Source: Bacteroidota bacterium (GTDB taxonomy: Bacteria; Bacteroidota; Ignavibacteria; Ignavibacteriales; Ignavibacteriaceae). From it: a stretch of 63,962 nt of DNA. Position 1 is the first letter of the stretch; each line of letters begins with the position of its first letter. A program made the position numbers and the translations under genes. The notes beneath the pieces were generated by a model, which searched no databases, had not been told where the DNA came from, and worked only from the letters and a program-made list of their open reading frames with translations. Positions 7,944 to 18,139 of the stretch are shown one piece after another. Where the stretch lies: assembly GCA_021831685.1 (NCBI GenBank), contig JAKBMG010000101.1:1-63962 (forward strand), given 5' to 3'.

Positions 7944-10127
7944 TTAAAAATAATAGAGATACTTTATTTTGAATACACCATTCCTTTCGGCGATATGCAT
8001 TCTTTGAGGTAAAAGATTTCCGGCAGCATCAAATTGATCGCTCCGGTTATCAAGTTCATTGTAAGCAAAGTAAATCCAGCTTTTGGGCTGGAAGTTATAA
8101 GAAAAGAGCAATCCAGAAATTAATTGTTCCATGTGGTTCGTAGACGAATCAAAAAGATTATCAATATAGACTCTGACATTAATATTATTAATTGGAGTAA
8201 TTGACAAAAACGGACGTGCGTTATAAGTAATATCTTCAACTCCGCCGGATGGGTTCCCCTCAATGTACATATTGTAAGAAGTTCCAAGTTGTAATACATC
8301 TGCTGCATTCCATTGAAAGTATGCTCCGAACCATGAATAGAACGCAATATAATCTCTATTAAAGTTATAAGTTCTTGCATAACCTCCGTATAAATTGCCA
8401 TTCCACTTTGCACTTGTGCTAAACCACCCGTTGTAGTCAATCTCATATGAATCGTATTTTATTCCTTGATCCTTAGATTTACCCGCAATCAGCGTAATTT
8501 CATAACCCCAATTGCTCCGGAATTGCATATTAAAGTCAAGGACTGCTGAATGGTCCATATATCCTTCAATATTTTTATAGTTGAAAGAAAATCCGCCTAA
8601 CAAAAGTATTTGACTAATGCTTCCTTCATCAAAATACCAAACAGGACCGGTAAGCGGGGTAAACTCCGATGTTCCAATCCAAGGTACATACCCTATCTGT
8701 TGAATATCAAAATTATTGCCGATATATTTTGACCTTACTAAGACCCACCATTTACTTCCAAGCATTGTAAAACCGGCCGAAGCTGCATAATCACCCTCGG
8801 AATTTTTGAAAGACCTGCCAATTTGATAAGAAAGTTGCCAATCCGATTGCCTGAATGCACCATCAACATCGATAACTCCATAAGTTGTATCCAAAGTTTG
8901 CTTGGCAACGAATAAAGCTCCGATAGAAGAATTTTCATCAAACTGTTTTTTAATCCTTGCCGAACCGAACATTGCACGAGGTTCAGTTCTTTGAGTTGTA
9001 TCATCCATATAATCTTTTTTGTCAGTGAGTGCTAAAAATCCACCGTATTCCCAATCTCCGATTCTTCCGAAAGCTTTCGTCCCAAGTATTAATGGGACTT
9101 CACTGCCATCTGGTAATTTCTCCCCGATTCTTCTTGAATAAAATAATTCAAGCGGGCTATAGAAACCTGTATTCACCTCTTTTCCGGCAGCCATAAATAC
9201 TTCATTTCCTTCAGTGAAAAAAGGACGGCGTTCGCTGAAATGTGTTTCGTATCTTGAAATATTGAATTGGTATGGATCGGCTTCAATCTGTGCAAAATCG
9301 GGATTAGCAGTCAACTGAAATTTTAATTCCGGCGAAGGGTTGTACATTATATCTAATCCGGCATTCGGATCAATTTTATATTTGTTGTTTCCTTCATATG
9401 TTGCCTTTGCGAGCCCTACCGGATAAATTTCCAGATTTAATCCCTTAACGCTTGGCTTAAAATTATCGAAAATCAATTCGCCGAATTTTGAAACTCTTTG
9501 ACCTTCATTTTTTTCGTATTTGTTCCAGTATAGATCTTCAGCCTTTGATGGAATATAGCGGTCAAAATCTAAACCCCATACCTTTAAATTTTTATTATAT
9601 TGAATAGACTTGTAAGGAATTTTCATTTCTGCCACCCAACCCCAGTTGTAAATTTTAGTTGCAGCAAACCAAATACCGTCCCAACTATAATCTCTGTTCC
9701 GGGCATCGTCTAATAACCTTGCATCGCTTCTTACACCTGAAACGGAAACGATAAATTTATAAGCAGTTTTATTATCGTCGAAAGTATCCAGCATAAAAGA
9801 AACATATTCTCCGGTGATATTATCTAAAGTTCCCGTAAAAGGCTGAATGAAATTTTTATCTTCATGGCAAATAATTAAACAATAAATAGCGTCTTCAGTT
9901 GTAAGAACTTTTGCGACAGTAGGCCAAGTTGGCGTTTTATCATAATATGGCGATAGCTGAAAAAAGTTTGTAGCCGAATCGGCATTGCTCCACGCTGGAT
10001 CAATCACTCCGTCAATTTTTATTTCTTTAATTGTCTTTCTTAGAATTAATTTTTTGCCGTGATTGTCATTTTTGGCAAAAGCGCCTACAAATAAAATAAT
10101 TATTAAAAACAATAATTTTTTCTTCAT
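7944..10127 (-). CDS. DUF5916 family surface protein with CBM9-like domain
   Basis: A 727-residue exported protein. A signal peptide (MKKKLLFLIIILFVGAFA) is followed by a family-9 carbohydrate-binding-like beta-sandwich at about 30-220 (IKEIKIDGVIDPAWSNADSA, then EDAIYCLIICHED and WVAEMKIPYKSI), and then a long beta-rich region ending in an aromatic residue (IKYLYYF), typical of an outer-membrane barrel. The region ISRYETHFSERRPFFTEGNE is the hallmark of DUF5916 proteins, which are widespread in Bacteroidota and have no established function. The arrangement suggests a surface barrel carrying a ligand-binding periplasmic module. The gene stands alone with a 331-bp upstream gap. Confidence 0.85.
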   Translation of the reverse strand: MKKKLLFLIIILFVGAFAKNDNHGKKLILRKTIKEIKIDGVIDPAWSNADSATNFFQLSPYYDKTPTWPTVAKVLTTEDAIYCLIICHEDKNFIQPFTGTLDNITGEYVSFMLDTFDDNKTAYKFIVSVSGVRSDARLLDDARNRDYSWDGIWFAATKIYNWGWVAEMKIPYKSIQYNKNLKVWGLDFDRYIPSKAEDLYWNKYEKNEGQRVSKFGELIFDNFKPSVKGLNLEIYPVGLAKATYEGNNKYKIDPNAGLDIMYNPSPELKFQLTANPDFAQIEADPYQFNISRYETHFSERRPFFTEGNEVFMAAGKEVNTGFYSPLELFYSRRIGEKLPDGSEVPLILGTKAFGRIGDWEYGGFLALTDKKDYMDDTTQRTEPRAMFGSARIKKQFDENSSIGALFVAKQTLDTTYGVIDVDGAFRQSDWQLSYQIGRSFKNSEGDYAASAGFTMLGSKWWVLVRSKYIGNNFDIQQIGYVPWIGTSEFTPLTGPVWYFDEGSISQILLLGGFSFNYKNIEGYMDHSAVLDFNMQFRSNWGYEITLIAGKSKDQGIKYDSYEIDYNGWFSTSAKWNGNLYGGYARTYNFNRDYIAFYSWFGAYFQWNAADVLQLGTSYNMYIEGNPSGGVEDITYNARPFLSITPINNINVRVYIDNLFDSSTNHMEQLISGLLFSYNFQPKSWIYFAYNELDNRSDQFDAAGNLLPQRMHIAERNGVFKIKYLYYF

Positions 10128-12141: not shown

Positions 12142-13512
12142 CTATAAAAGATTGCTCGCTAGCTCGGCAAGCTCAGAGCGTTCTCCCTTTTCAAGATTAA
12201 TATGAGCGTAGAGTTTCTGTCCCATAAAGTGGTCGATTAAATAAGTAAGCCCATTTGATTGTGAATCAAGATAAGGATGATCGATCTGGTAAATGTCTCC
12301 GGTAAATACAACTTTAGAACCTTCACCGGCACGGGTTATAATTGTTTTAATTTCATGCGGTGTTAAGTTTTGTGCCTCATCTACAATAAAGAAAATTCTT
12401 TGCAGGCTCCTTCCGCGGATATACGAAAGCGGTTCGATAACAAGTTTCTCCTCCTTGACCATATTTGTAATTAACATGCTTTGTTTATCGGTTTCGGTAA
12501 ATTGATCTTGTATAACGCGCAGATTGTCCCACAGCGGCTGCATGTAAGGTTCAATTTTACTTTGGACATCGCCCGGGAGATAACCTATGTCTCTGTTACT
12601 TAGGGGGATGATCGGACGCGCAATAAAAATCTGCCGGTAATTTTTTCTCACGTTCAAAGCGCTTGCAAGTGCAAGAAGTGTCTTTCCAGTTCCGGCTTTT
12701 CCGGTTAATGTGACTAAAGAGATATCTAAATTTGTTAAAGCATCAACTGCAAAAGTCTGTTCAGCGTTGCGAGGTTTAATTCCGTATATAATATTTTTAT
12801 CAACTTTCCTAAGGTTTCCCATCTCTTGATCAAGATAGGCAAGCACAGATCTGTTTGAATTTCTAATAATGTAAAATTTATTCGGGACTGCGTCGCTGTT
12901 TAATTTTTTTAATACTAACTTTGCGGGAATTTCATATGGAGGCTGAAATAATTTAACGATTATCTCATCATCAAAATCTTCCACTATTTCTTTACCGCTA
13001 TAAAGCTCTTCTACGCTGTTGATTCGGTCTGTTGTATAATCTTCAGCAAGAATGCCAAGTGCTTTCGCCTTCATTCTAAGGTTAACATCTTTCGTAACTA
13101 AAATTATTGTCGATCTGCCGTTAACTTTTTTATTCCACTCAAAAGCAACTGAAAGAATTCTATGATCAGGCGTGTCTTCCTTAAATATTTCTTTAATTTC
13201 ATTAGCAATTCCGCGAGAAATAGCTATTCTTACTTTGCCTCTTCCTTTTCCCATTGAAACTCCGCCGTTAAAAAGCGCAGTGCCGGTCATCGAGTCCAAA
13301 GTTCGTGCAAATTCTCTTGCGTTAAGGTTTATTACCTGACTTCCTCTTTTAAAATGATCTAATTCTTCGATAACAGTCAGAGGAATTATAACATCGTGTT
13401 CCTGGAATTGGTTAATGCATGTGGCATCGTGAAGAATCACGTTGGTATCAAGTATAAATGTTTTTAATCTTTTGATTGGTTTCTGCGGTTGGGAAATTTT
13501 TTTAATTTTCAT
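12142..13512 (-). CDS. PIN domain-PhoH ATPase fusion
   Basis: A 456-residue protein with an N-terminal PIN nuclease domain (about 15-145; the acidic residue in TFILDTNVILHD and further acids at EELDHF and DHRILSVA) and a C-terminal PhoH-type P-loop ATPase (Walker [14 protein letters not shown] near 265-280, Walker B FFIVDEAQNLTPHEI near 372-386). This PIN-PhoH architecture (PhoH2/YlaK type) has been linked to RNA unwinding and RNA cleavage. Its length is usual for the type. It is divergent from carA and the two promoters share the 13513-13871 interval. Confidence 0.92.
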   Translation of the reverse strand: MKIKKISQPQKPIKRLKTFILDTNVILHDATCINQFQEHDVIIPLTVIEELDHFKRGSQVINLNAREFARTLDSMTGTALFNGGVSMGKGRGKVRIAISRGIANEIKEIFKEDTPDHRILSVAFEWNKKVNGRSTIILVTKDVNLRMKAKALGILAEDYTTDRINSVEELYSGKEIVEDFDDEIIVKLFQPPYEIPAKLVLKKLNSDAVPNKFYIIRNSNRSVLAYLDQEMGNLRKVDKNIIYGIKPRNAEQTFAVDALTNLDISLVTLTGKAGTGKTLLALASALNVRKNYRQIFIARPIIPLSNRDIGYLPGDVQSKIEPYMQPLWDNLRVIQDQFTETDKQSMLITNMVKEEKLVIEPLSYIRGRSLQRIFFIVDEAQNLTPHEIKTIITRAGEGSKVVFTGDIYQIDHPYLDSQSNGLTYLIDHFMGQKLYAHINLEKGERSELAELASNLL

Positions 13513-13691
13513 TCAAAGTGCTCTTTTGTTTCGGTGCAAATATTATGATTTTTAGCTGTCTTAACAAGTCTCAGAATATTTCAGTCTGTTAAATTTATAT
13601 TAATTCATCCTTCCCAAAAATTCCATTCAATTTACATTAAGAAATGCTTTACTTGAAGTGAATTTCATCACTAAGTTTTTAGTCTTGTGAA

Positions 13692-13722
13692 TTGAAACTG
13701 TAACCTTTATGATTTATATTTG
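13692..13722 (+). promoter_or_regulatory. Bacteroidota-type promoter of the carAB leader
   Basis: A TTG at 13692-13694 and an exact TAnnTTTG box (TATATTTG) at 13715-13722 are separated by 20 bp, the spacing of the -33/-7 housekeeping promoter of Bacteroidota. Transcription would begin near 13728-13730, only a few bases before the leader ORF. Prediction only. Confidence 0.6.
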
Positions 13723-13734
13723 TTAAAAATTTTT

Positions 13735-13809
13735 ATGATATTATTCAAAGAGATTAGTATTATTCGACTTAAGACAGATGGTGAAATTATAAAGAGTCTA
13801 TTAGCATAG
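13735..13809 (+). CDS. Putative 24-codon leader peptide of carAB
   Basis: An ATG at 13735 opens a reading frame of 24 codons (MILFKEISIIRLKTDGEIIK, then SLLA) ending at TAG 13807-13809. The stop codon sits inside the 5-prime arm of the terminator hairpin at 13806-13828. A ribosome that reaches the stop would cover that arm and prevent the hairpin from forming. The frame contains a single arginine codon and no amino-acid run, so if it is real it looks more like a transcription-translation coupling sensor (as in Escherichia coli pyrBI) than an arginine-codon counter. No clear Shine-Dalgarno is seen upstream. A 24-codon frame can arise by chance, so the call rests on its position. Confidence 0.45.
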   Translation: MILFKEISIIRLKTDGEIIKSLLA

Positions 13810-13834
13810 CCACTCCACGAGTGGCTATTTTTTT
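13806..13834 (+). terminator. Intrinsic terminator in the carAB leader (attenuator)
   Basis: A perfect 10-bp stem (ATAGCCACTC at 13806-13815 with GAGTGGCTAT at 13819-13828), a 3-base loop CAC and a run of seven T. The T-run lies only on the plus-strand side, and there is no upstream plus-strand gene to terminate, because the neighbour is the divergent PhoH gene. The hairpin therefore most plausibly stops a short leader RNA about 40 bp before carA. Confidence 0.8.
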
Positions 13835-13871
13835 GTTTGAATGGAAACTGACTAAAAGGAAAAATGTAAGA

Positions 13872-14948
13872 ATGAGCAATGAAAGAAAGGTCGCAAAATT
13901 AATTTTAGAAGACGGAACGGAGTTTTCCGGCTTTAGCTTTGGATATGAAAAAAATACAAACGGGGAAGTAGTCTTTAATACCGGAATGGTAGGCTATCCG
14001 GAAACAATGACCGATCCATCTTATCGCGGGCAAATTTTGGTTAGCACTTATCCGTTAATCGGAAATTATGGTGTTCCCGGATATGAACGCGAAAATAATT
14101 TGTTAAAATATTTCGAATCCGAACAAATTCATTGCAGAGCATTAATCGTTTCGGATTACTCTGAAAACTATTCCCACTGGAATGCCAAACGCTCACTGTC
14201 CGATTGGATGATTGAACAAAAAATTCCTGGAATTACAGGAATAGATACAAGGATGCTTACTAGAAGGCTTCGCGATCATGGCACAATGCTGGGAAAAATT
14301 ATTGTTGTCGAAAACCAGGAAATAGACTTTGAAGATGTGAATCTATTAAATTTAGTCAGCGAGGTAAGCGTTAAAGAACCTGTTGAATTTAAACGCGGCT
14401 CAAAAAAAATAGTTCTTGTCGATTGCGGAACAAAGAACAATATCATACAGGCTTATCTTAAAAGAGATATTACTGTCTTAAGAGTTCCTTATGATTATGA
14501 TTTTTCTAAAGAAAAAGCCAACGGGATTCTAATTTCAAACGGTCCGGGTGATCCGAAGATGTGTACTGCAACTATTGAAAACGCAAAAAGGGCAATGACT
14601 AAAGGAACTCCCATTCTAGGCGTTTGCCTTGGAAGTCAAATTATGGCGCTTGCTGCCGGCGCAAATACTTATAAATTAAAATATGGTCACCGCGGACATA
14701 ATCAACCTTGCAATGAAATGGGAACGAAACGATGCTACATTACTTCACAAAACCATGGATTTGCTGTTGATTCCGAAACCCTCCCTGAAGATTGGCGCGA
14801 GTGGTTTGTAAATGATAACGACGGAACAAACGAAGGAATAATTCATATCTCTAAACCTTATTTCGCAGCTCAATTTCACCCTGAGGCATCTCCGGGACCT
14901 GATGATACAGAGTTTATTTTCGACATGTTTTTGAGGGCCTTAAAATGA
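13872..14948 (+). CDS. carA: Carbamoyl-phosphate synthase small subunit
   Basis: A glutaminase subunit of 358 residues that supplies ammonia to CarB for pyrimidine and arginine synthesis. The start ATG at 13872 (MSNERKVAKLILEDG) has an AAGGA motif about 11 bp upstream at 13856-13860. An in-frame GTG at 13821 is open but lies inside the leader terminator stem, so it is not used. The N-terminal domain includes NTGMVGYPETMTDPSY, and the class-I GATase domain has the nucleophile in ILGVCLGSQ and the His-Glu pair in AAQFHPEASPGP. The gene overlaps carB by 4 bp (ATGA), showing translational coupling. Confidence 0.97.
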   Translation: MSNERKVAKLILEDGTEFSGFSFGYEKNTNGEVVFNTGMVGYPETMTDPSYRGQILVSTYPLIGNYGVPGYERENNLLKYFESEQIHCRALIVSDYSENYSHWNAKRSLSDWMIEQKIPGITGIDTRMLTRRLRDHGTMLGKIIVVENQEIDFEDVNLLNLVSEVSVKEPVEFKRGSKKIVLVDCGTKNNIIQAYLKRDITVLRVPYDYDFSKEKANGILISNGPGDPKMCTATIENAKRAMTKGTPILGVCLGSQIMALAAGANTYKLKYGHRGHNQPCNEMGTKRCYITSQNHGFAVDSETLPEDWREWFVNDNDGTNEGIIHISKPYFAAQFHPEASPGPDDTEFIFDMFLRALK

Positions 14949-17900
14949 TTAAACGCGGTAAACCAAAAAAAGTCTTGATACTTGGCTCAGGTGCTTTGCA
15001 AATCGGACAAGCAGGCGAGTTTGACTACTCCGGGAGCCAGGCTATTAAAGCATTAAAAGAAGACGGAATTATTTCTGTCCTTGTTAATCCGAATATTGCT
15101 ACTATCCAAACTTCAGAAAATTTTGCCGATAAGGTCTACTTCCTGCCTATTAAAACTGAATTTGTTGAAAAAATAATTCAGAAAGAAGAACCGGACAGCA
15201 TACTTCTTCAATTCGGCGGGCAAACTGCTCTCAACGTTGGCGTTGAACTTTATGAGAAAGGCATTCTTGCTAAGTATAATGTAAAAGTTTTAGGAACACC
15301 AGTTGAAGCTATTGAAGCTACCGAGGATAGGCTTTTGTTTGCAAATAAAGTCTCTGAAATCGGATTGAAGGTTGCATTAAGTAAAACAGCTACTAATGAT
15401 GATGAAGCTCTTCATGCTGCAAAAGAAATCGGTTTTCCTGTCATGGTTCGAATTGCCTACGCGCTTGGCGGGCTCGGTTCGGGAATAGTAAATAATGAAA
15501 AAGAGCTTTTGGAAAAAACACATCGTGCCTTTTCTTTTACTAATCAAATTTTAATCGAAGAATCTCTTTATGGATGGAAAGAAGTAGAATATGAAATTGT
15601 CCGGGACAAATTCAACAATTGCATTACTATTTGCTCTATGGAGAATGTTGACCCGATGGGAATTCATACCGGTGATAGTATAGTTATTGCGCCGGTACAG
15701 ACTTTATCTGCCCATGAAAATTTTAAGCTTCGCTCAATTGGCATAAAATTAATTCGTCATCTTGGAGTTATTGGCGAGTGCAATATTCAATATGCGCTTG
15801 ATCCTAATTCGGACGACTATAGAATTATAGAAGTGAATGCAAGATTAAGCCGTAGCTCTGCTCTTGCTTCTAAAGCCACCGGATACCCCCTTGCCTTTAT
15901 TGCAGCTAAGCTCGCGCTTGGATACGCTCTTAACGAAGTTGAAAATATTATTACGCGCGAAACGTCTGCTATGTTTGAGCCGGCACTCGACTACGTTGCT
16001 CTTAAATTCCCGCGTTGGGACTTACAAAAGTTTCGTCAGGTAAGTACTCAGCTTGGTTCCGAAATGAAATCAGTTGGCGAGGTGATGTCTCTCGGCCGAA
16101 GTTTTGAAGAAGTGCTTCAAAAAGCAATTCGCATGCTTGATATAGGTATGAAAGGATTTACCGGCAACAGCTTAATTTTTGAAAATTTAGATGAGGAACT
16201 TTCTAAACCAACCGATAAAAGAATTTATGCAGTCGCAAAAGCACTTCAAGACGGTTACTCGGTAGAAAAAATTCATCAGCTTTCTAAAATTACCCCCTGG
16301 TTCATCTACAAGATGAAAAATATTATTGACACCGAAAAAAAATTAAAAGGCTTAAAGCTTCAAAAAATTTCCAAACCCTTAATGGAAGAAGCAAAGCAAA
16401 ATGGTTTCAGCGATTTGCAAATTGCTCAGCTCTCAGACTCAAAAGAAATGGATGTAAGAAAATACCGAAAAGGATTAAACGTAATTCCTGTAGTAAAACA
16501 AATCGATACTCTTGCAGCTGAGTATCCGGCACAAACAAATTATCTCTACTTAACTTATCATGGCAAAGAAGACGATATAAAATTCGGCGATAAAAATCAG
16601 ATCGTTGTGCTTGGCAGCGGGGCATATAGAATTGGCTCTTCTGTCGAGTTTGACTGGTGCTGCGTTAACGCCGTACTTACTTGCAATAAACTTGACTACA
16701 AGACAATCATGATTAACTGTAATCCGGAGACCGTCAGCACCGATTACGATATTTGTGATAAGCTTTATTTTGAACAATTGACTTTTGAAAGAGTTCTTGA
16801 TATTTACGATAAAGAAAACCCCGAAGGTGTTATTATTTCGATGGGTGGGCAAATTCCCAACAATCTTGCTGTAAAGCTACATGAAGCAGGAATTAAGATT
16901 CTCGGCACCTCTCCTACGCAAATTGATAATGCAGAAGACCGCCATAAATTCTCTAAAATACTTGATAGACTTGAAATTGATCAACCGGATTGGGAAGAGT
17001 TGACAAGCTTGGGCGAAGCAAAGGAATTTGCAAAGAAGGTAGGTTTCCCTGCCTTAATACGCCCAAGTTATGTCTTAAGCGGTGCGGCAATGAGTATTGT
17101 TTTATCGGATGCCGAGCTTGAAGAATATCTTGATAAAGCTGCTAGTATTAGTAAAGAACACCCGGTAGTTATCAGTAAATTTATTACGGAAGCTCGCGAG
17201 ATTGAAGTTGATGCTGTTGCCGAAAACGGAAATTTATACTGCTATGCAATTTCGGAACACGTGGAAAATGCAGGAGTTCATTCAGGCGACGCTACCATTG
17301 TACTGCCTCCTCAACGTACTTATCTTGAAACAATGCGGCGTGTGAAAATGGTTACTAAAGCAATCGCAAAGGAATTACAAATAACAGGTCCCTTCAACAT
17401 CCAATTTATTGCTAAAGATAACGAAGTAAAAGTTATCGAATGCAACTTGCGCGCTTCAAGAAGCTTTCCCTTCGTTTCCAAAGTCTTGAAAATAAATTTC
17501 ATAGACTTAGCAACAAAGTTAATGATGGGTGAAAAGCTTCCTAGGATTGATAAATCTTCTTTTGATGTTGATTATGTGGGAGTAAAAGCTCCCCAATTTT
17601 CATTTACAAGATTAAAAGGATCAGACCCGGTACTTGGGGTTGAAATGGCGTCTACCGGTGAGGTCGCTTGTCTTGGTGATGATTTTAACGAGGCTTTTTT
17701 GAAGAGTTTTATCTCAACCGGATTTAAAATTCCTAAGAAAGCTGTAATGCTTTCAACCGGAACCCTAAAAGAAAAAGCAGAATTTCTTGAAGAAAGTAAA
17801 AAGCTTTTTAATCTTGGTCTGAAAATCTACGCGACAAAAGGTACTGCTGAATTCTTAAGACAAAACGGAATTGACGTCGAAATTCTCTCTTGGCCGCTTG

Positions 17901-18139
17901 AAACTGATGAACCAAATGTCATTACTTATCTAAATGAAGGCAAGATTGATTTGGTAATAAATATTCCGAAGAATGCCGAGAAGGATGAGCTCGATAACGA
18001 TTACTTGATCAGAAGAAAAGCAGTTGATATGAATGTTAATTTAATAACAAACATTCAGGTTGCTAAAAGATTCGTAAAGTCCTTTTACCGGTATAAAATT
18101 GACCAGTTGGAAATTAAAAGCTGGGATGAGTATAACTAA
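14945..18139 (+). CDS. carB: Carbamoyl-phosphate synthase large subunit
   Basis: A full-length 1064-residue ATP-grasp synthetase that makes carbamoyl phosphate from bicarbonate, ammonia and two ATP. Two homologous halves are visible: the first opens with [20 protein letters not shown], the second around residue 560 with [20 protein letters not shown]. Each half has the ATP-binding motif ([20 protein letters not shown] and [20 protein letters not shown]). The C-terminal domain (from about 940) is the MGS-like regulatory domain that in other bacteria binds UMP or ornithine. Only 2-3 residues of the stated motifs differ from typical sequences. It overlaps carA by 4 bp and is presumably the last gene of the unit. 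Confidence 0.97.
   Translation: [1064 protein letters not shown]

Follow-up and report, generated by a model that had tools for sequence, protein, structure and literature searches.

A candidate ribosome-coupled attenuator upstream of carAB in a family of Ignavibacteria

The presence of a perfect hairpin with a T run between the promoter of the carAB operon and its first gene raises the question of what an intrinsic terminator does in such a place. The locus lies in a stretch of 63,962 nucleotides, here called the window, which was analysed at its full length and makes up an entire contig in the 4.5-Mb genome G000 of the Ignavibacteriaceae. A first-pass annotation made from the sequence alone had proposed attenuation coupled to the translation of a short leader ORF, as in Escherichia coli pyrBI. 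When the sequence was re-read, the promoter, leader ORF, hairpin, 7-T run and carA all lay where they had been placed (Table 1), and the identities of carA and carB held, with both scores above the NCBIfam cut-offs. The divergent gene, which had been called PhoH, is PhoH-like but scores under those cut-offs. The stop codon of the leader ORF sits within the 5' arm of the hairpin, the ORF contains a single Arg codon (CGA), and the distance from the T run to carA is 37 nt.

Table 1. Coordinates of features around the carA leader in the window
Feature	Position	Strand	Basis or remark
Divergent PhoH-like gene	12142-13512	minus	profile match below cut-offs
Palindrome AGTGA-N6-TCACT, possible operator	13657-13672		upstream of the carA promoter, outside the attenuator proper
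-33 TTG element	13692-13694	+	sequence
-7 element TATATTTG	13715-13722	+	sequence
Leader ORF, 24 codons, ATG at 13735, TAG at 13807-13809	13735-13809	+	sequence; frame tests
GAGTCTA, complement of UAG-(CC)-ACUC in the terminator 5' arm	13794-13800	+	in some family members, a possible half-stem for pausing or antitermination
Terminator hairpin, perfect 10 bp, 3-nt loop	13806-13828	+	terminator scan
7-T run of the terminator	13828-13834	+	sequence
carA, carbamoyl-phosphate synthase small subunit	13872-14948	+	TIGR01368, 451 bits, cut-off 307.35
carB, carbamoyl-phosphate synthase large subunit	14945-18139	+	TIGR01369, 1534.6 bits, cut-off 1027

Terminator-like sites are common in this DNA. Between positions 10000 and 20000 of the window ten were found where shuffles led to an expectation of 7.9, so that one site in one genome proves little; the hairpin in the carA leader has the longest stem of the ten. 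No second copy of its 19-base stem pattern with the 3-nt loop exists in the 4.5-Mb genome when up to two mismatches are allowed, and for a covariance model of the leader (R1, described below) the carA site is the sole match in that genome at E<=0.5, in a search that scored 70 of 4951 first-look candidates under strict filters.

Comparison within the family is more telling. From 69 of the 80 family genomes 70 carA leaders were obtained, two of them copies in one genome (G007), while the remaining 11 genomes had no carA match, weak matches only, or a fragment. Cut or masked leaders were left out (L057, L069, L070, L074, L099), the hairpins of L072, L093 and L096, taken to be unrelated, were scored as absent, as was that of L050 with its broken T run, and loci L001-L034 entered no count. 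On this basis a hairpin with a T run precedes carA in 47 of the 65 evaluable leaders, representing 17 of the 28 genera, and in all 12 leaders of the window's own genus, g1; loss of the hairpin in close relatives, which the first-pass annotation had set as a refutation, did not occur. No qualifying hairpin was found before carA in 11 of the 28 genera. Where present, the hairpin is kept although the surrounding leader sequence has diverged. The usual stem, GCC[AG]CT[CT] with its complement, is found in 38 of the 47 leaders, and other stems such as AGTCCCGA/TCGGGACT occupy the same place in some species. A predicted intrinsic terminator between promoter and carA, as expected of an attenuator of the pyrBI type, is thus present in the window and in these 47 leaders. 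The covariance model R1, trained on 33 of the 47 with the window's leader included, gave 39 family matches at E<=0.001, of which 38 lie directly before carA and 33 come from leaders that also trained the model. The 39th (contig C250 of G041) belongs to a genome in which a contig end truncates the carA leader, and carA is not on the contig that bears the match. Weaker matches, with E from 0.0018 to 0.5, fall mostly elsewhere than at carA.

Translation of the leader was approached through the 44 of 51 hairpin leaders in which a TAnnTTT box precedes the hairpin by 60-115 nt; left out were L047, L061, L062, L070, L072, L093 (no -7 match) and L096 (by genus), and L038 was retained with a wrong -7 box and scored as a miss. 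In 37 of the 44, the -7 box is preceded at 17-26 nt by a TTG element. Counted from the start of that box, a start codon follows at 26-32 nt in 33 leaders (28 TTG, 3 ATG and 2 GTG), and 32 leaders combine a start at 26-30 nt with a frame in which no stop occurs more than 13 nt before the hairpin. In 500 dinucleotide shuffles of the same leaders the latter number averaged 2.4 (sd 1.5) and never exceeded 7; averaged by genus over 17 genera, the same score is 0.70 compared with 0.06 in the shuffles. The openness is specific to the frame set by the start codon, since 32 of 33 leaders are open to the hairpin in that frame and only 2 and 14 of 33 in the two shifted ones. Among these 33 ORFs the stop codon lies within 13 nt of the hairpin start in 21 and at +34 or beyond in 11; the outlier at -35 (L055) reflects the script's choice of the second of two -7-like boxes, and measured from the first one this leader has a TTG at 28 nt and a stop at -6. 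The distance from promoter to start codon is nearly constant across the family leaders, with the hairpin 65-105 nt from the -7 box. A translated leader ORF that reaches the terminator, the other hallmark of a pyrBI-type system, is therefore indicated by frame selection in the leaders compared.

In contrast to the frame, the peptide itself is poorly conserved, with 13 synonymous and 60 non-synonymous changed codons in 13 non-independent pairs. A peptide conserved throughout the family was considered and rejected; the in-frame BLOSUM sum is +8, compared with -73 and -51 in the other frames, a difference that is partly due to stops in those frames. Because the peptide is poorly conserved and Arg codons are not enriched (see below), it seems that translation itself is under selection and not a run of Arg codons. 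A TTG start in 28 of 33 leader ORFs means that a weak start has been kept over many genera, and initiation may perhaps be kept slow in this way.

The window's own branch departs from this plan in one respect. Counted from the start of the -7 box, its ATG comes at 20 nt, a shorter distance than the 26-32 nt found in most leaders of the family. The window's frame is likewise open into or up to the hairpin in G013, G015 and G020, the three closest relatives, yet no ATG, GTG or TTG follows the -7 box in the shared frame; a TTG does occur at 20 nt in G020, but it opens a different frame, one that also closes shortly before the hairpin. Substitutions at changed codons in this clade are conservative in the shared frame, with a BLOSUM mean of +0.71, unlike in the other two (-0.71 and -0.73). 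These three genomes may use a rare start codon, or the ATG of the window could be fortuitous. Across genus g1, 10 of 12 leaders carry an ORF that begins with a canonical start codon and extends at least to the hairpin; of the other two, L036 lacks one and the sole ORF of L038 is a late one of 13 codons, starting with GTG in another frame. Loss of the leader ORF in close relatives, which the first-pass annotation had named together with loss of the hairpin as a refutation, thus did not occur in the genus, although the exact ATG of the window is not kept. The same division applies to the pyrBI-like layout, in which the premature terminator and a translated frame running into it are supported by comparison, while the ATG of the window is not kept in the nearest relatives.

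The palindrome upstream of the promoter is a separate feature of this genus. It is present with at most one mismatch in 9 of the 12 leaders of genus g1, the 58 other leaders scanned all lack it, and it resembles what we take, as a guess at the family, to be an operator of the CRP/FNR kind.

Taken as a whole, a translated attenuator before carA is very probable for the family and, for the window itself, still highly probable. The fuller reading, a ribosome-coupled transcription attenuator of carAB that resembles pyrBI and has low UTP as its likeliest signal, is favoured here with somewhat better than even confidence. Transcription would start just past TATATTTG, and a ribosome would initiate on the short ORF near the 5' end, at UUG in most relatives and at AUG in the window, while the polymerase is still in the leader. 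With the polymerase ahead, the hairpin would fold and most transcripts would stop before carA. If instead the ribosome gains on a slowed polymerase, it would reach the end of the ORF and cover the 5' arm, as a stop codon at the hairpin base or beyond it would allow, and carAB would be transcribed. Both premature termination and its relief by the ribosome are inferred. According to one E. coli study, the repression of a terminator sited a few bp behind a gene is nearly complete, whereas those within the first 100 bp of a coding region are able to act efficiently (PMC4824070). On the latter ground the relief provided by translation may perhaps be only partial here.

One alternative is a switch of RNA structure, in which GAGUCUA pairs with the 5' arm of the terminator to form an antiterminator or a pausing hairpin, on its own or with a bound protein or ligand. 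Among the 38 of 47 leaders with a GCC[AG]CT[CT] arm, a complement of the last four bases of the arm, G-U pairs allowed, lies within 30 nt upstream in 21 leaders from 8 of 14 genera, compared with a mean of 5.4 (sd 2.0, maximum 12) in shuffles, and two-sided changes are seen as AAGU:ACUU in genus g10 and GAGC:GCUC in genus g3. The GAGTCTA-type stretch (AGAGTC) moreover occurs in all three reading frames in different species, which implies that it is kept as nucleic acid. Against such a switch, the complement was not found in 17 of the 38 leaders and 6 of the 14 genera, and the minimum-energy fold of the window's leader does not contain the pairing, which would leave CC bulged between UAG and ACUC. 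A stable antiterminator in the nascent leader gained no support from folding energies, with 44 leaders no more stable than their shuffles (mean z +0.13). Searches against Rfam 15, riboswitches and T-boxes included, gave no match at the gathering score in the whole window, and over the carA leader only weak matches, all under gathering scores, at E<=10. As an explanation of the whole leader the switch is therefore unlikely, and GAGTCTA may act as a pause hairpin or weak antiterminator in part of the family.

Arginine is the obvious candidate for an amino acid sensed by the leader peptide in the manner of trp or his, as carAB feeds arginine synthesis and AGA GTC or AGA GTA stands in frame near the hairpin in several leaders. 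The codon counts argue against it: Arg codons number 28 of 518 in the leader ORFs, compared with 23.6 expected from composition, and the window's ORF has just the one. The frame-independence of the AGAGTC stretch and the excess of non-synonymous changes, both described above, also speak against a peptide sensor, and an attenuator of this type, for which a run or excess of Arg codons would be expected, is not supported. An arginine sensor is rather improbable, and the earlier view that arginine sensing was the less likely option gains from the wider comparison. The residues in excess are Glu (26 compared with 15.6 expected) and Phe (39 compared with 24.0), about 1.6-fold in each case; that Phe codons are U-rich is the sole explanation offered. 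With no excess of Arg codons and an unstructured nascent leader, what remains is a race between ribosome and polymerase.

A further possibility is that the hairpin is the terminator of a small RNA or peptide gene and that carAB is expressed through leakage or from another promoter. Stems resembling GCCACTC/GAGTGGC are indeed found away from carA elsewhere in the class, so the stem by itself is no signature. This arrangement would hardly explain why the distance from promoter to start codon is nearly constant and why the hairpin stands before the same gene, and the 37 nt between T run and carA are too few for another -33/-7 promoter plus a start, which makes it quite improbable. Control of the carA leader by PyrR, as at pyrR-pyrB of the same genome, is very improbable. 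RF00515 fails to match the carA leader even when hits up to E<=10 are admitted, although PyrR is encoded in the genome (241.6 bits, cut-off 138) and its own leader does match RF00515 below the gathering score (44.9 bits, E 2.8e-4, gathering score 54).

The pyrR gene adjoins a gene of the ATCase/OTCase family, which by its place is pyrB. By eye, the pyrR leaders of the order (L188-L207) contain a PyrR-like stretch and, after it, a hairpin with T run, and two of four tested pyrR leaders match RF00515 at E<=0.1, both below the gathering score; the model may under-score the PyrR sites of this lineage. The arginine repressor ArgR (PF01316) is patchily distributed; it scores above the cut-off in 31 of 80 family genomes, including that of the window, and in no searched genome of genera g7, g10, g11 and g19, all of which keep the carA attenuator. 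Together with the PyrR findings, the ribosome-coupled reading of the carA leader suggests that PyrR and a coupling switch share out the pyrimidine genes of one genome. That carAB has been kept out of PyrR control in a PyrR-using lineage and placed under a separate switch of this kind, independent of the peptide and mostly initiated at UUG, is a tentative extension. If it is true, the supply of carbamoyl phosphate to both the pyrimidine and the arginine branch would be set by a race between ribosome and polymerase and not by a metabolite-binding protein.

As the signal for the ribosome-coupled attenuator, low UTP, which would slow elongation in the stretch before the hairpin, is inferred as the likeliest; the chances that UTP is the signal are about even. 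The first-pass annotation had asked for a pyrimidine-rich pause site. In the 28 nt before the hairpin the T fraction is 0.405, compared with 0.319 upstream of the promoter (p=0.0015; this baseline covers 15 of the 17 genera). Compared with the earlier part of the leader it rises from 0.26 to 0.39, with 14 of 17 genera showing the rise (p=0.0056), although translated genes commonly have an A-rich start region. The stretch is thus T-rich on average across genera but not in the window, whose leader has no such rise (0.32 late, 0.30 early). A comparison with ordinary terminators drew on the 12 parsable loci of 19, each of them a model match away from carA, and is suggestive only, with mean upstream fractions of A 0.53 and T 0.34 there and of 0.38 and 0.40 at the attenuators. 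The T-richness seen across genera before the hairpin fits a UTP-sensitive slowing of the polymerase.

Beyond the family the arrangement was seldom found. Leaders were taken from 40 of 87 outside genomes with a carA match and from four genomes of a sister family. Among the 40, only one (G139, of another family) has a hairpin and T run close to carA, and it follows the same plan with a GTG at 28 nt; one further leader has a hairpin 272 nt upstream. Within the sister family, G243 gives a covariance-model match with carA adjoining (E 1.3e-5), G352 has a hairpin before carA by eye, and G313 and G351 show, by eye, only a hairpin at a distance of over 140 nt upstream; none of these four was found to follow the start-codon plan seen in the window's family. 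A class-wide search with the covariance model matched 37 of 294 genomes at E<=0.05, and among the 30 loci listed carA adjoins 11, ten of which are in the window's family.

A different conserved carA leader was seen by eye in family f15 (L150, L152, L154, L156-L159 and L163). It carries TATCTAACCTAATAGCCACTAATAGTAACTCGCGGCT and variants right after the -7-like box, without a T run, and is possibly another cis element.

No published carAB attenuator in Ignavibacteria was found in the literature searched, which excludes most subscription journals, in agreement with the earlier remark that carAB attenuation appeared to be undescribed in this lineage; a possible precedent is reported for Pseudomonas (PMC4997734). 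Ribosome-coupled attenuation is known from other bacteria, and for carAB an attenuation through a leader peptide has been proposed in Pseudomonas, which suggests that the new element is their occurrence in this group of Ignavibacteria. Comparative support for a translation-coupled attenuator is strong, in a group for which the searches showed no earlier report. Its many diverged natural variants allow start codon, stop position and hairpin to be compared with one another. Provided that the element functions in the way proposed, transcription and translation would be coupled at mRNA 5' ends in these largely uncultured bacteria.

The known systems are compared here as the cited sources describe them. 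A survey of premature terminators states that leader-peptide systems had until then been found only in Proteobacteria and Actinobacteria, and adds Firmicutes (PMC2965389). In E. coli carAB, the same operon, control by pyrimidines and arginine is described, and regulation of the P2 promoter takes place without attenuation (PMC6245113). The carA motif SRC-12-1 of Polynucleobacter, an extended imperfect hairpin just upstream of the ribosome binding site and a riboswitch candidate (PMC8632094), is also a cis element directly before carA, a likeness by description only. Attenuators that bind PyrR (RF00515) share the premature termination of pyrimidine genes, and the leader of pyrR-pyrB in the window's genome is of this type; by contrast, no PyrR site was found in the carA leader, which is unstructured and presumably translated.

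Closer in arrangement is the carAB leader of Pseudomonas. For P. aeruginosa a leader peptide has been reported before carA, with control by pyrimidines "possibly through an attenuation mechanism", and for P. syringae a terminator in the carA 5' UTR, where disruption of the stem-loop raises expression; P. syringae DC3000 is described as having no start codon for a small peptide in this leader (all PMC4997734). A terminator in the carA 5' UTR and, in P. aeruginosa, a leader peptide thus match the layout predicted for the Ignavibacteria, in an unrelated lineage and compared by description only.

The nearest parallel in mechanism is pyrBI of E. coli, which is regulated by ribosome-coupled attenuation, with coupling across the leader pyrL required to prevent its terminator (PMC5021804) and with pausing and attenuation that depend on UTP (PMC7818426). 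As in the Ignavibacteria, the leader ORF enters an intrinsic terminator ahead of the structural gene, a likeness of layout only. The family described here differs in that the regulated operon is carAB and not pyrBI, in a start codon that is mostly UUG at a near-constant distance from the promoter, in a hairpin that follows about 36-76 nt beyond the start, and in the presence of a PyrR system in the same genome.
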